From positions 1 through 51,519 of IMG/VR virus record IMGVR_UViG_3300049811_000497: a DNA stretch of 51,519 nt, one strand, 5' to 3'. The notes below the pieces were generated by a model. It was not told the DNA's origin. It searched no databases and saw nothing but the letters and a program-made list of their open reading frames with translations. Positions within the stretch are counted from its first letter, which is position 1; the number at the start of each line of letters is the position of its first letter. The stretch comes from a virus. Both the position numbers and the translations under genes were made by a program. This document shows, one piece after another, positions 7,071 through 50,288 of the stretch.

Positions 7071-7655
7071 ATGGCTATTGCAGAAGATCTCTCCCAAGTA
7101 TTTAAAGAGATAGGTTCTAAGATTGAAATTTTGGGAACCCTCCCTGCTGTTTTTGAGTATGTAGATATTACGAAAACAGACAGGGAGGGTTTTTTTACGT
7201 GTACTTTCCCTTCTACCACGAAAGCAGTGCCCGGAAGTGTTATTTCAGTTTCTACGAGTGGCGAGAAGTTTCTAATTCTTCATGTTGTTAAACAGCAATT
7301 TGAAAATACAATAGTTCTTATAGATGCTGCAATGGTTTATTGTAGGAATTCAGTAAACCTTAAAAGATTGTCTGAATCAAAAGATCCTGTAACAAGAGAA
7401 AAAGATCTGACTTGGACTGATGTTTCTTCTAATTTTTGTTACATATCACAAACAACTACTGGAAATATTTTAAATTCAGAATTTGATGAAGCTTTTTTTA
7501 ATGAAAAAAATAAGAAAATGTTTATTTCTGCATCTTCTGGAGTAAAAACTGGGGATAGAGCAGAGTTTTCTACAGTTAAATTGCAAGTTGGTGATATTGA
7601 TAATCTCCGTTATCCAGGAGTTTGTGTTTGTGAGCTTTTTGAGGATGAAAGATAA
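7071..7655 (+). CDS. Putative head-closure/stopper protein, unknown family
   Basis: 194 residues, beta-rich in the middle (FEYVDITKTDREGFFTC; PGSVISVSTSGEKFLILHVV). Position after the adaptor candidate suggests the head-closure (stopper) protein that seals the head after packaging, a beta-barrel in known cases; this is inference from gene order. It starts 3 bases after the previous stop with GGGAGG (7056-7061) upstream, and its stop overlaps the next start (TAATG). A terminator-like hairpin (7136-7196) sits in its first third. Confidence 0.5.
   Translation: MAIAEDLSQVFKEIGSKIEILGTLPAVFEYVDITKTDREGFFTCTFPSTTKAVPGSVISVSTSGEKFLILHVVKQQFENTIVLIDAAMVYCRNSVNLKRLSESKDPVTREKDLTWTDVSSNFCYISQTTTGNILNSEFDEAFFNEKNKKMFISASSGVKTGDRAEFSTVKLQVGDIDNLRYPGVCVCELFEDER
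7136..7196 (+). terminator. Terminator-like hairpin inside a coding sequence
   Basis: AACCCTCCCTG (7136-7146) pairs with CAGGGAGGGTT (7181-7191), and after a small internal loop TGTTTT (7148-7153) pairs with AAAACA (7173-7178). The right arm runs into a stretch of seven T (7190-7196). This is the form of an intrinsic terminator, but it lies about 65 bases inside the head-closure candidate gene, so it would attenuate rather than end the late transcript. Ribosomes translating the gene would also open it. Confidence 0.55.
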
Positions 7656-8452
7656 TGCCAAATTCATACTTAACTGTTCCACCGGCCCATATGCCTCTTA
7701 TGATGTGGGGAAATGCTGGAGCAAAAACAGGAAAATATAATCTTGAAGCTAGATATAGTAATTTTGGGAAATATACTCAAGTTAATGTAATTCAACTACT
7801 AACTAATACTTTAAATTACTATGTGTCCATTTCTGATAGAGGAAATGCTCGTTTCAGTAAAACTGCTGCGGAAGCTTGTGCTAAATTTGTAAGAAAACAG
7901 ATAAGAGCTAATGCTTATAAATCAATGGTTCCTGCTCTAACTAAGAAGTGGGCTAAGACTAAATCAAGGTTGAAGTTGGCCCATCAAACAGGCATGGCCA
8001 CAGAGCACTTGGTAAGGAACATTACAGCATTTAGGACGAATATTAAGGACCATGCTTTTAAGGAAACAAGGCATACAGGGTATGTTGTTGGTGTAAATCA
8101 GATGGCTGATTTTACAAGAGATGCTGATAAAGTGCCTAAAATGCCAAAGAGAAAGTCTTACCGACCGGATTATTATAAAGCCAAGGTTTTAAATAAGAAG
8201 AAAAACAAAGTTAAGGAAGTTCAAATTTGGCGTCTAGGATCTGATTTTTTGAATGCGAAACTTTATTGGTTAGAACATGGTTTTACTGGAAAAGGCCATA
8301 AAGGGGTTTCTTTTAGGGTTCCACCTAGACCAATTTTTACTAAAGCTGTGGAAGACTTCATCAGGAAATTTAAAGGCGGGGAAGATTTTGTAGGACAGTT
8401 AAAGATGGGTTCCAGAGGCACTTTGGAATTCAAATTTAAAGCTCATCGTTAA
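7655..8452 (+). CDS. HK97 gp10-like tail completion protein
   Basis: 265 residues, strongly basic. The C-terminal pattern LYWLEHGFTGKGHKG, then RVPPRPIFTKAVEDF, matches the HK97 gp10/minor tail completion family, which joins the head connector to the tail tube. The N-terminal helix containing FSKTAAEACAKFVRKQIRANAY and the KKWAKTKSRLK stretch are also typical. It is longer than the usual 120-160 residues because of a roughly 100-residue insert in the middle with Lys-rich loops. The start overlaps the preceding stop (TAATG). Confidence 0.72.
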   Translation: MPNSYLTVPPAHMPLMMWGNAGAKTGKYNLEARYSNFGKYTQVNVIQLLTNTLNYYVSISDRGNARFSKTAAEACAKFVRKQIRANAYKSMVPALTKKWAKTKSRLKLAHQTGMATEHLVRNITAFRTNIKDHAFKETRHTGYVVGVNQMADFTRDADKVPKMPKRKSYRPDYYKAKVLNKKKNKVKEVQIWRLGSDFLNAKLYWLEHGFTGKGHKGVSFRVPPRPIFTKAVEDFIRKFKGGEDFVGQLKMGSRGTLEFKFKAHR

Positions 8453-46233: not shown

Positions 46234-46821
46234 CTACCTCACTTTTATAACATTATCTGCCCCTTCTATTATCTCTGATATGTGAGAAACAATTATAAAT
46301 TGCATTTTTAGTTTTTCAGAAAGCATTTTCAACATTTCTGGTATTTTTGACAGATGTTTTTTGGAAACAAACTTAAACGGTTCATCAGCTATTAGCAGTT
46401 TCTTTGACCCACTGAGGAAGATGAAGGCTACTCTGGCGGCAAAGGATGCTACGTCAATGACCCCGCCTCCAGAGTCATCTACAGGATGAAATTCTTCCCC
46501 ATCTCTTTCAAAGTAGAGTTCAGCTTCTATTATATTTCTTTTAACTTGAAATCTTATTTTACACTCGTATGGGTCATCAGGAAAAACAGCAAATAAAGCG
46601 GAAGTAGTTATTGTGCAAATTGTATCTGCTACTTCTTGTTGAACTTCTTCAGCTATATTTTGGAAAAAAACTCTAACCTTCATTATCAATTCATTGTATG
46701 ACCTAGTTTTTTCTAATTTTTCATAAAGATCGTCCAAAGTGTCATACAAAGAATCTATTTTAGAAATGTTTGATTTTATCTTATCTTCAATTTCTTCAAA
46801 TCTATCAATATTCCGTATCAT
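46234..46821 (-). CDS. Split Rad50/SbcC ATPase, C-terminal half
   Basis: 195 residues from the ATG at 46821 (an upstream ATG at 46857 would overlap the preceding gene more). A short coiled coil (residues 5-45) leads to a Rad50-type C-lobe: a signature-like DDSGGGVIDVASFAARVAF, Walker B KLLIADEPFKF (Asp about 146, Glu about 147), and the His-switch IIVSHISEI (His about 180). It has no P-loop of its own, so it must pair with the N-half encoded at 48316-49365 to form a working ATPase head. It overlaps the 83-residue coiled-coil gene by 17 bases. Confidence 0.85.
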   Translation of the reverse strand: MIRNIDRFEEIEDKIKSNISKIDSLYDTLDDLYEKLEKTRSYNELIMKVRVFFQNIAEEVQQEVADTICTITTSALFAVFPDDPYECKIRFQVKRNIIEAELYFERDGEEFHPVDDSGGGVIDVASFAARVAFIFLSGSKKLLIADEPFKFVSKKHLSKIPEMLKMLSEKLKMQFIIVSHISEIIEGADNVIKVR

Positions 46822-47056
46822 GGAGAAGTTCTTCCACTTTATATATACTTTTTTCAATTTCTTCAGTTTCTACTTGAATTTCACCTTGTAACTTTCTGTA
46901 CAATTTTGAAGCTTCAGAAATTGACTCAACACCAAACTCATCTTTTAGTTGGTCTAGTATAGCTTTTTTAGCCCCTTCAAGAGTAGCTTGTTTTTCCTTT
47001 AATTTTTCTATCCTTGAAATGAAATCGTTCAGTTTTTCAATATCTAATTCAGCCAT
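46805..47056 (-). CDS. Small coiled-coil protein between Mre11 and Rad50 C-half
   Basis: 83 residues, almost entirely heptad-like (LNDFISRIEKLKEKQATLEG; RKLQGEIQVETEEIEKSIYK). It lies between the Mre11-like and Rad50 C-half genes and in a different frame from the latter. It could be the missing part of the Rad50 coiled-coil arm on the C-terminal side, or a subunit that stabilises the arm; both are inferences. Confidence 0.6.
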   Translation of the reverse strand: MAELDIEKLNDFISRIEKLKEKQATLEGAKKAILDQLKDEFGVESISEASKLYRKLQGEIQVETEEIEKSIYKVEELLHDTEY

Positions 47057-47058
47057 GA

Positions 47059-47979
47059 CTAATCTCCTGCAACTAGTTTTAAAATGGAGTCTATTTCTTC
47101 AACCAACTCAGAGCTTTTTATTCTTTGCTTTTTATCTTCAATTTTATCTTTGAAGGATATTTTTTTAGATCTTTTATCTAAGGTTTTTATAAACTTTAGC
47201 AATTCTTTTTTGTTAGCTTTTACCTTAATCTTCTTTGAAACATCAAAAACCCTTTTATTTTTAACTGGTATTTTTATTGTTTCAAAATCCCCTAATTTTT
47301 CTGTATCAATTGTGTAAACTTGGGGCTGGTAGTCCTGTTGGTCTGATTTAAGCCTTCCCAATGATCCACACATTATAAGAACTCTTCCTCTATAAATTTC
47401 TTGGAAAGGTCTGTGATTATCACCACAAATAATAAAATCGTATTTATTTTGCTTTAAAAAATCTACAGCATATTTTACATTTTCTTGCCCTTTCCAGATC
47501 TTTTCTTTTACCAAAAGATCATGACAAACAAGAATATTTACAGAATCAGGATCTTTTATTTTTGGTACTTTTTCTCCCCAACTCATGCCATATATAAATG
47601 TGTTTTCTGTGGGATCTATTTGGATGGGGTTTTTACTTAAATGCTTTATGCACCCAGAGGAAACTAAAGTTTGATAAGGGGTATTATCTAATTTTTTAGT
47701 GTGATTAACTTGATCATGCTGGCCAGCTACAGTGTAGAACCAATTTGTTCTGCACCACATCCTATTTCTGAAATAGTCTATCATCCAGTTTACTAACCAG
47801 TATGGTTCTTTTTCAGAGTCCCAAAAATCTCCAGCATTTAAAACAGCAGAGCAGCCATGATTTTCAAAAAGATCATTAGCTTTTTGAAATTTCTCTAGTA
47901 TAGCTTCTGTATAATCATCTGTTCTTGTTTCTGGTGTTCTAGCAGTTATGTGGTAATCTGCTCCTGCTCCTAGTATCAT
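47059..47979 (-). CDS. Mre11/SbcD-like nuclease
   Basis: 306 residues from the ATG at 47979 (GGGA upstream); TTG 47991 is an alternative. Metallophosphatase motifs: GADYH (Asp8, His10), LNAGDFWD (Asp51), VAGQHDQ (residues 84-90; canonical GNHD with Asn replaced by Gln), VCHDLLV, and ICGDNHRPF. The last 90 residues are Lys-rich and probably bind Rad50. Mre11-type nucleases trim DNA ends with Rad50 in repair and recombination; related phage examples are T4 gp47 and T5 D12. The Gln in the second metal motif deserves checking. Confidence 0.85.
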   Translation of the reverse strand: MILGAGADYHITARTPETRTDDYTEAILEKFQKANDLFENHGCSAVLNAGDFWDSEKEPYWLVNWMIDYFRNRMWCRTNWFYTVAGQHDQVNHTKKLDNTPYQTLVSSGCIKHLSKNPIQIDPTENTFIYGMSWGEKVPKIKDPDSVNILVCHDLLVKEKIWKGQENVKYAVDFLKQNKYDFIICGDNHRPFQEIYRGRVLIMCGSLGRLKSDQQDYQPQVYTIDTEKLGDFETIKIPVKNKRVFDVSKKIKVKANKKELLKFIKTLDKRSKKISFKDKIEDKKQRIKSSELVEEIDSILKLVAGD

Positions 47980-47981
47980 AA

Positions 47982-48314
47982 TCAATCCCAAGTGAAAAAT
48001 GGTTGATTTCCATCATTCATAGAATTCATTTTTTCCATACTTTCTTTGGCTAAAGGATGTGCTACAGCAAAAACAACCATTCCTCCATCATCAGTAGCGG
48101 CATACCCAACTATGGAACATCCTTTAGTGTCAGGAATTGATACAGAGTATTTCTTAAACCATTTCTTAACAATTCTCTTTTTTCTTGTTTTTGGTTTTTT
48201 CTTTAAAACTTTATAATTTGTACGATCATCATCTACGAAGTTTATTTTTATTTCTTTAAACATGTAATTCTCCAATAAAAAATATAAAGGGATTTTTTCT
48301 TGGTAAATTCCCAT
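47982..48314 (-). CDS. Hypothetical basic protein in the Mre11-Rad50 cluster
   Basis: 110 residues if started at ATG 48314 (AAGGTGG upstream); 93 residues if started at ATG 48263, which also has GGAG at good spacing. Central region is Lys/Arg-rich (VLKKKPKTRKKRIVKKWFKK), suggesting nucleic acid binding, followed by a beta section (GCSIVGYAATDDGGMVVFAVAH). Encoded between Rad50 N-half and Mre11. Function unknown. Confidence 0.6.
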   Translation of the reverse strand: MGIYQEKIPLYFLLENYMFKEIKINFVDDDRTNYKVLKKKPKTRKKRIVKKWFKKYSVSIPDTKGCSIVGYAATDDGGMVVFAVAHPLAKESMEKMNSMNDGNQPFFTWD

Positions 48315-48315
48315 A

Positions 48316-49365
48316 TCACCACCTTTTATTACAAACAGGACATATTTTTAATCTCTTTTTAAGATCACCAATTTTATTTTCTAGATCTTCCAGTTTTTTT
48401 GATACAGATAAACTATCTTCATTTAATATGGTATAAGCCTCTATTTTCTTTTTTAAAGAGAATAGGTCTTTATCTTTTTTCTCTAGTTTTATTTTAGATT
48501 TTTTTATTTCTTGTATTTTCAGATCAATTGGGACAAATTTTATTTTTGGCTCATTTTCTAGAGATCTGTATCTATCTATACTTTTTTTAAGTCTGTTCGT
48601 GGATTCTATTTTTGGAACAAGTTGATAGGATACTTCAACCACTTCAAAATATTTTTCAGTGATTTTATTAAGAACATTTTTGTGTATTTTTTCTTCTTGT
48701 ATCTTTTTTGTTTGTATAAGCAATTTGCGTAATTTTTCAACAACCTCCTCCTTATCACAGATATTGTCAATCTTACGCTTTATTTTTTTAATTTTACTTT
48801 CAAAAATTTCATATTTTGAGAGTTTATTTATTTCTTTTTCTTTTTCATCTATCAATTCACAAAGGAATTCTTCTTCACTTTTCCCTTTCCTTACCCTTCT
48901 ATTTGTCTCTTCTAGGGCATGAATAATCTCCTCCATACCAGAGACATCGTTTATCATCTTAGAGACTTTAGAATCAGGGTACTGAAACAAGAAATGCTCA
49001 TCAAATTGTCTTTGGATATTAAGAGAAGAAATATTAGTAAAATTGGAAATAGGTTCTGGGACTTCTGATCCCATAGCTTTGAATGTTTCACCTTGGAAGA
49101 AATATTCATTTTTAGAAGTAGATTTTGTGCGACTTATTTCTTCCCCGTCAATGATTATTTCCACATTTACAGATGTTGAGGGGGCAGTGCCTTTTGTCTT
49201 GAATTTATTTCCAGAAGGTCTGTTTTCTAAAACCCACCTCAATGCTCTAATAACTGCTGATTTTCCAGCATCAGATTCTCCAGTAATGACGTTTATTCCT
49301 TCAGTAAATTCAATCTTGAGATCTTTGTGTTTTTGAAAGTTTTTTATATGGGCTGATTCTATCAT
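48316..49365 (-). CDS. Split Rad50/SbcC ATPase, N-terminal half with terminal zinc hook
   Basis: 349 residues. N-lobe of a Rad50/SbcC head: HIKNFQKHKDLKIEF, Walker A GESDAGKS (residues 29-36), and a Q-loop region NIQRQFDEHFLFQ. Residues about 145-335 are coiled coil. The protein ends KICPVCNKRW, so the zinc-hook CPVC (Cys342, Cys345) lies four residues from the C-terminus: the gene stops exactly at the hook, and the returning arm and C-lobe are encoded elsewhere (46234-46821). It starts within the stop of the PP-loop gene (ATGA). Confidence 0.88.
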   Translation of the reverse strand: MIESAHIKNFQKHKDLKIEFTEGINVITGESDAGKSAVIRALRWVLENRPSGNKFKTKGTAPSTSVNVEIIIDGEEISRTKSTSKNEYFFQGETFKAMGSEVPEPISNFTNISSLNIQRQFDEHFLFQYPDSKVSKMINDVSGMEEIIHALEETNRRVRKGKSEEEFLCELIDEKEKEINKLSKYEIFESKIKKIKRKIDNICDKEEVVEKLRKLLIQTKKIQEEKIHKNVLNKITEKYFEVVEVSYQLVPKIESTNRLKKSIDRYRSLENEPKIKFVPIDLKIQEIKKSKIKLEKKDKDLFSLKKKIEAYTILNEDSLSVSKKLEDLENKIGDLKKRLKICPVCNKRW

Positions 49366-50288
49366 TCACATACACCCTCACTTGCATTACAGAAGTAAAA
49401 ATCATAGTTTTTTCTAGGTCTTCCAGATTTGTTTTTTGTTTTACAATATTCAATATAATCGTAAACAGTAAAACCTTTAACCAGATGTCTTTTCTTATTT
49501 AGATGGAAAAATGTAGCCCTTTCATTTGGGCTTATATTTTTTATGAGTTTTTCCCATTTAGCTATTTTTTCTATATGTCCTGGGAAAAGTTCATTAATAA
49601 GTAGAATTTCATTTTTAGGTGAGTTTATACATGGAAAGCACCCTACTCTGGTGAAACCCATATCGTACAATGGGTTTCTCTTTATTCCAAATCTTTTATG
49701 TATGTCAAAAACGTCTTCTCGTTTTAAATGCAAAATTGGCCTATATATTTCTATCCAATCATTGGAATTATCAAAGTAGGGCAGTTTACTTCTAGATTCC
49801 GATTCATCCCATCGGACGCCCTGCCAAGAACAAACAGGCTTTTTATATTTGTTTCCAAGCTCATCCTGCAATAATGTGATTGGTATTCTTTTTAAATACT
49901 CTGTACAAAATTGTGACATTCTTGATGGAAACATATGTTTGTAGCAGCAAAGATTTAAAAATTTATTTTTTTCTTTAAGTGCTTTCTTCAATGCTTTAGG
50001 AGCATTTTCATTTTTAAATTCGTATTTTCCCAAAGAAAAATTTTCTAATCTTTCTTGAAGTTTTGTTTCAAAATTTGATTCTACCTTATGAATTTTTATT
50101 TTTAATTTTCTTTCAAGATAGTCTATGTATTCATAGGTTATTTCGTGCTCATTGCCGGTATCTGCAAAAGCCCCGACAAAATCATACCCCATATCCATTG
50201 CAACAAGTGCAGTGGCCGTACTGTCTTTACCGCCAGACATAGAAACAACATGTATTTGATCTTTACGGGGCTTTTGTAGATTTTTCAT
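49362..50288 (-). CDS. PP-loop ATPase, PAPS reductase/DndC-like
   Basis: 308 residues. The PP-loop motif MSGGKDS lies at residues 17-23, with FADTGNEHEITYEYI the usual follow-up. Cysteines in LNLCCYKH, MSQFCTEYLKR, VGCFPC and CNASEGVC could hold an iron-sulphur cluster as in CysH and DndC. PAPS reductases make sulphite; DndC-type relatives act in phosphorothioate DNA modification. In phages this family is widespread with undecided function. Its neighbours are DNA ligase and Rad50/Mre11, which favours a DNA-linked role, but no dnd partner was seen. Overlaps both neighbours by 4 bases. Confidence 0.82.
   Translation of the reverse strand: MKNLQKPRKDQIHVVSMSGGKDSTATALVAMDMGYDFVGAFADTGNEHEITYEYIDYLERKLKIKIHKVESNFETKLQERLENFSLGKYEFKNENAPKALKKALKEKNKFLNLCCYKHMFPSRMSQFCTEYLKRIPITLLQDELGNKYKKPVCSWQGVRWDESESRSKLPYFDNSNDWIEIYRPILHLKREDVFDIHKRFGIKRNPLYDMGFTRVGCFPCINSPKNEILLINELFPGHIEKIAKWEKLIKNISPNERATFFHLNKKRHLVKGFTVYDYIEYCKTKNKSGRPRKNYDFYFCNASEGVCE

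Follow-up and report, generated by a model that had tools for sequence, protein, structure and literature searches.

The DNA analysed here, a 51.5-kb virus record (51,519 nucleotides, hereafter the window), carries on its minus strand a module that is a real, widespread and apparently undescribed three-chain variant of Rad50/SbcC, in which the ATPase is divided at its zinc hook. Homology, motifs, the gene set, the constancy of the split and its near exclusion with single-chain SbcC lead us to read the module as an Mre11–Rad50 (SbcCD) machine with a Rad50 made from separately translated chains, with a probability of about 80%; from the same data we infer its assembly, stoichiometry, zinc binding and activity, and the position of a small helical protein denoted S. 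Rad50, SbcC and SMC proteins are believed to depend on a single folded-back chain that passes ATP-driven head motion up two joined arms. Here the chain is cut at the hook, and the cut is retained across hundreds of phages and in a recA-linked cellular operon. Relatives were drawn from viral contigs, named phages and GTDB genomes, and an ORF/HMM survey provided 190 non-redundant loci with both halves.

The minus-strand genes from 51,348 to 44,861 encode, in order, a DNA ligase, a PAPS-reductase-like protein, proteins of 349 and 110 aa, a 310-aa phosphoesterase, an 83-aa protein, a 207-aa ORF (195 aa from a better ATG), two small ORFs and a ThyX-like thymidylate synthase. The features of the module are as follows:

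48316–49365, minus strand: Rad50 N-half, 349 aa, with N-lobe, coiled arm (about 194 aa, four units of about 50 aa) and terminal CPVC
49258–49281, minus strand: Walker A, GESDAGKS, N-half residues 29–36
48331–48342, minus strand: zinc-hook motif CPVC, N-half residues 342–345; C342 and C345 invariant in 69 sequences
47982–48314, minus strand: basic protein of 110 aa, outside the conserved module and without relatives in the fetched loci
47059–47991, minus strand: Mre11/SbcD-like nuclease, 310 aa from a TTG, with the ATG at 47979 the likelier start
46805–47056, minus strand: S protein, 83 aa, probable two-helix hairpin; an HMM family present in 187 of 190 loci
46234–46821, minus strand: Rad50 C-half from the ATG at 46821, with short coil and C-lobe
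46234–46857, minus strand: longest ORF of the C-half, TTG start
46462–46473, minus strand: degenerate ABC signature SGGG(V); xGGGV/A in nearly all C-halves
46381–46398, minus strand: Walker B, LLIADE; D158 and E159 invariant

The ORF coordinates and motifs of the original prediction, all on the minus strand, proved right, and the C-half start it had chosen (ATG at 46821, GGAAG upstream) is more plausible than the TTG at 46857. The set of genes it had described as interleaved between the halves needs revision: Mre11 and S are located there, but the 110-aa protein has zero relatives among the 17,815 ORFs of the fetched loci. As this gene is private to the window, the conserved module consists of four genes. 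Immediately upstream of the N-half, the PAPS-reductase-like PP-loop gene (49362–50288) overlaps the N-half start with its 3' end by four bases.

Both halves are recognizable as Rad50. The N-half ends in LKICPVCNKRW, which places CPVC four residues ahead of the stop. It matches AAA_23 in Pfam and phrog_16465 (“exonuclease”, 3.6e-26) in PHROGs, and a profile of 69 N-halves has the archaeal Rad50 N-lobe as its best PDB match (3aux_A, 3.3e-17, profile positions 2–202). The Walker A and Q-loop of a Rad50 N-lobe are both present: G29, G34 and K35, Q120 and the terminal CxxC are invariant across the 69 aligned sequences. An AlphaFold model of the single N-half chain (pLDDT 88.9, pTM 0.49) likewise provided Rad50 as top fold match. 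Two single-chain models were calculated, whose low pTM values (0.49 and 0.33) fix neither the course of the arm nor where the hook lies; in both, an extended residue flanks CPxC on either side, as in a hook hairpin. The CxxC, a predicted zinc ligand, terminates the coiled arm in 188 of the 190 loci and is followed by a median of 10.5 and a maximum of 36 residues.

In the C-half of the window, SGGGV, LLIADEP and a VSH switch are found. Its Pfam match is SMC_N, below threshold, and its PHROGs match is phrog_15167 (“ATPase”, 211 aa, 4.7e-25); the best PDB match for a profile of 57 C-halves is the archaeal Rad50 C-lobe (3qkr_B, 5.5e-14, profile positions 24–202). Walker B, D-loop and His switch are retained, with D158 and E159 invariant and VTH or VSH in most C-halves. 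The canonical LSGGE/Q signature is absent, and nearly all C-halves carry xGGGV, xGGGA or xGGGI at this site, so that, judged from the motif, the ATPase behaviour may differ. In the recA-linked cellular C-halves an Arg precedes the GGG. The division of Rad50 at the zinc hook, the core of the original prediction, is borne out by both half-profiles matching Rad50 best, by the model of the N-lobe and by the terminal CxxC, invariant in 69 sequences. Moreover, a two-chain head is physically possible, since there are structures of Rad50 heads composed of two distinct chains (1f2t_A with 1f2t_B, 3qkr_A with 3qkr_B).

The nuclease of the window matches Metallophos (2.6e-7) and phrog_100, SbcD (7e-13). 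It carries DYH, GDFWD, GQHD and GDNH, and the five phosphoesterase metal motifs of Mre11/SbcD (DxH, GD, GNHD/GQHD, H, GHxH/GDNH) are all present. A gene for the putative Mre11/SbcD partner accompanies the two halves in 188 of the 190 loci. Two of the metal motifs (residues 90–93 and 190–193 of the window protein, compared with 187 related proteins) covary, GNHD occurring with GHxH (85 loci, 56 genome and 29 viral) and GQHD with GDNH, the unusual pair of the window (71 loci, all viral). The combination GNHD and GDNH was found in 15 loci and GQHD with GHxH in none of the Mre11 set; one phage clade may have a rebuilt metal site. In a quick Mre11 tree, with uncertain root and SH-aLRT as the only support measure, the recA-linked group forms one clade with vB_BboS-125-type phages as sister, nested in mainly viral diversity, and the window sits in a large second, viral clade.

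A single-sequence viral scan with the N-half of the window returned no relatives; profile scans retrieved at least 533 from viral contigs and 206 from GTDB genomes. The gene order is N-half, Mre11, S, C-half in 118 of 127 viral loci and Mre11, N-half, S, C-half in 56 of 63 genome loci, and N-half, S, C-half, Mre11 is the third order seen. Both lobes were never found on a single polypeptide joined via the hook: none of the 190 loci holds a fused chain, and the sole protein matched by both half-profiles is RecN. As each half forms a separate PHROG family and the 190 loci are never fused, the layout is not a product of chance or error. Nothing was found in favour of decay or sequencing error in a single-chain SbcC, or of an intron or frameshift that joins the halves; with the split constant in 190 loci and three gene orders, and motifs conserved in both halves, such explanations are exceedingly improbable. 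Intron and sequencing error, which the original prediction had named as possible refutations, are excluded on these grounds. In two draft genomes the N-half is itself split into two ORFs within the arm (Bacillus sp. JCM 19034, locus L286, 7965–9424; Acetivibrio straminisolvens, locus L247, 7977–9427), and these breaks reflect either sequencing error or decay.

Among named phages, Bacillus phage vB_BboS-125 encodes an N-half of 471 aa ending in GGICPLCEQTHKGGGC, an S protein of 78 aa (gp34) and a C-half of 211 aa. Its Mre11 gene (locus L002, 9247–10227) lacks annotation in the RefSeq record, and an AP2-domain gene (7407–7979 of the same locus), perhaps a mobile insertion, lies between N-half and S. 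A hookless, dispersed version occurs in Microbacterium phage Magritte (OR553905.1), where the N-half is devoid of any CxxC (locus L003, 6001–7053) and the C-half (OR553905.1, 431–922) is located about 93 kb away, near the other genome end. Vibrio phage 51E28 was rejected as a split system, being single-chain, and two further candidate loci were excluded as a RecN and an ABC transporter. Searching a defence-system library gave generic ATPase matches only.

The S protein comprises two heptad-rich stretches of about 35 aa around a conserved turn (GVxPxxL or C-S-L-EA), which suggests a helical hairpin rather than one long helix. It is found in 187 of 190 loci, directly upstream of the C-half almost everywhere, and matched no family in Pfam or NCBIfam at curated cut-offs or in PHROGs at E<0.001, where only weak coiled-coil matches appeared. 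Long C-halves were inspected for a natural S–C fusion, and their extra stretches are not S.

How the arm is built is less certain than the division of the chain. N-arm lengths, taken between CPxC and a conserved Asn that closes the N-lobe, cluster at about 153, 202, 252, 304 and 353 residues. A period of 51 fits best (R 0.82, with a nominal p that disregards kinship), self-similarity peaks at lags of 47 and 94, and at least 19 changes of length class occur on a 75-row Mre11 tree. The C-arm stays at 73–82 aa and S is constant at 83 aa while the N-arm varies. Stepwise growth of one partner next to two constant ones speaks for a rod formed by the N-half alone, i.e. helical units of about 50 aa stacked or self-folded up to the hook without a returning strand, with only a short C-half coil at the head and S as a clamp there. 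We regard this single-chain rod as a real possibility, at somewhat below even odds. AlphaFold argues against it in drawing long helices (86 aa) where distinct short repeats would be expected, albeit such packing is beyond its reach, and the C-arm grows slightly with the N-arm (rho 0.43 overall), though rho is 0.11 within viruses.

The original prediction held that S could supply part of the coil missing from the C-half; on this view both together would make up an ordinary C-terminal Rad50 arm. That S is a conserved partner encoded directly ahead of the C-half agrees with this proposal, and the combined length of S and the C-arm (about 156 aa) is that of the shortest class of N-arm (about 153 aa). 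Across the N-arm range of 150–350 aa, however, the length of S is independent of that of the N-arm (rho -0.01, n=183), so S is no variable-length substitute for a return arm; the turn between its heptad stretches looks like a hairpin as well, and we consider the proposal unlikely. A fold-back of the N-half itself appears similarly doubtful. The last helix of about 60 aa (281–339) would return from a loop at 271–279, leaving CPVC part-way down the arm, at the end of the C-half coil instead of the apex. AlphaFold does place a loop with pLDDT <50 at 271–279, helix breakers peak about 60 aa ahead of the hook in several length classes, and the lengths sum correctly in the 194-aa class. The same sum fails in the 147 and 298 classes, the second model contains several weak breaks, none of them decisive, and charge covariation for helix pairing shows no clear centre, its best value of about 3 sd over some 100–260 tested offsets being near noise.

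The cellular relatives occupy a fixed site in Firmicutes, where the operon reads FtsK, RimO, PgsA, CinA, RecA, Mre11, N-half, S, C-half and RNase Y (rny). Hosts include Tissierella, Peptoniphilus, Caloramator, Thermobrachium, Tumebacillus, Shouchella and Natroniella, and a RecA homologue is encoded at 61 of 80 loci. Single-chain SbcC was surveyed in 199 genomes of the phylum of Tissierella praeacuta with TIGR00618 at E<=1e-15. An N-half was found in 34 genomes and single-chain SbcC in 80, with both in one or two. SbcC is thus encoded in 1–2 of 34 split genomes versus 78–79 of 165 others (Fisher p 1.3e-7 or 1.8e-6, without phylogeny correction and with many draft genomes included). The curated TIGR00618 cut-off was reached by none of seven named split genomes, but also by none of the 199 genomes surveyed, which leaves the comparison by E-value as the informative one. 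In many Firmicutes the four-gene set apparently takes the place of the usual one-piece SbcC, and it may account for the absence of SbcC there.

Mechanistically, the N-half would contribute the lobe with Walker A, the entire arm and the zinc hook at its end, and the C-half the signature/Walker B lobe together with a short coil, the small helical S protein always being made alongside. N- and C-lobes would associate in trans into an ABC head, like the crystallised Rad50 fragments, and two heads would bind an Mre11 dimer and close upon ATP. Two N-halves would join via a single zinc ion coordinated by two CPxC motifs. The original prediction had likewise taken the second CxxC from another N-half; this fits, but is not unusual, as Rad50 has one CxxC per chain and normally obtains the second from another chain. 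With an arm of units of about 50 aa, S may brace or cap the short C-half coil near the head. During recombination-dependent replication and repair in phages, the complex would trim hairpins and DNA ends; in Firmicutes it may do the job of SbcCD beside RecA. It is possible, though less likely than not, that phages and many Firmicutes, where it would be the standard form, share a distinct class of Mre11–Rad50 with a modular rod arm (units of about 50 residues, no returning strand), a two-chain head and an S protein that holds or regulates the C-half. Such a naturally separable system would allow head, arm and hook to be mixed and mutated independently, and would show if covalent continuity between the two arms is required. 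It also puts an identity on gene groups now labelled “exonuclease”, “ATPase” or “hypothetical protein”.

No description of a split Rad50 was found in an open-access library or in PMC6375668 and PMC7824862, a coverage that leaves aside most subscription journals and preprints. Its components are nonetheless present in public records. In PHROGs, phrog_16465 and phrog_15167 (e.g. vB_BboS-125 gp32 and gp35) are the same two halves, kept as unrelated families, and the records never name a split Rad50. Microcystis phage Mvi-JY20 and the uncultured phage LR745208 (485 kb) encode an N-half ending in CSQC or CPVC, Mre11 and a C-half, with S in Mvi-JY20; these genes are unannotated or hypothetical, and those of LR745208 are spread across about 8 kb. 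Phage T4 gp46/gp47 and the SbcCD-like pairs of Staphylococcus phage 184DA and Vibrio phage 51E28 are likewise phage Rad50/Mre11 pairs with a CxxC hook, but their Rad50 is a single chain with CxxC mid-chain, at 288/560, 325/639 and 362/709, respectively. With archaeal and eukaryotic Rad50 and bacterial SbcC, the split system has in common both lobes, Walker A, Q-loop, Walker B, His switch, coils, the CPxC hook and an Mre11 gene. It differs in being three chains instead of one, in its hook at the C-terminus, in the xGGGV/A signature, in a short C-arm, in the additional S subunit and in an arm that lengthens by steps of about 50 aa. As the system would work like Rad50/SbcC but lacks the single chain and LSGGE, it is classed as a variant of Rad50/SbcC.
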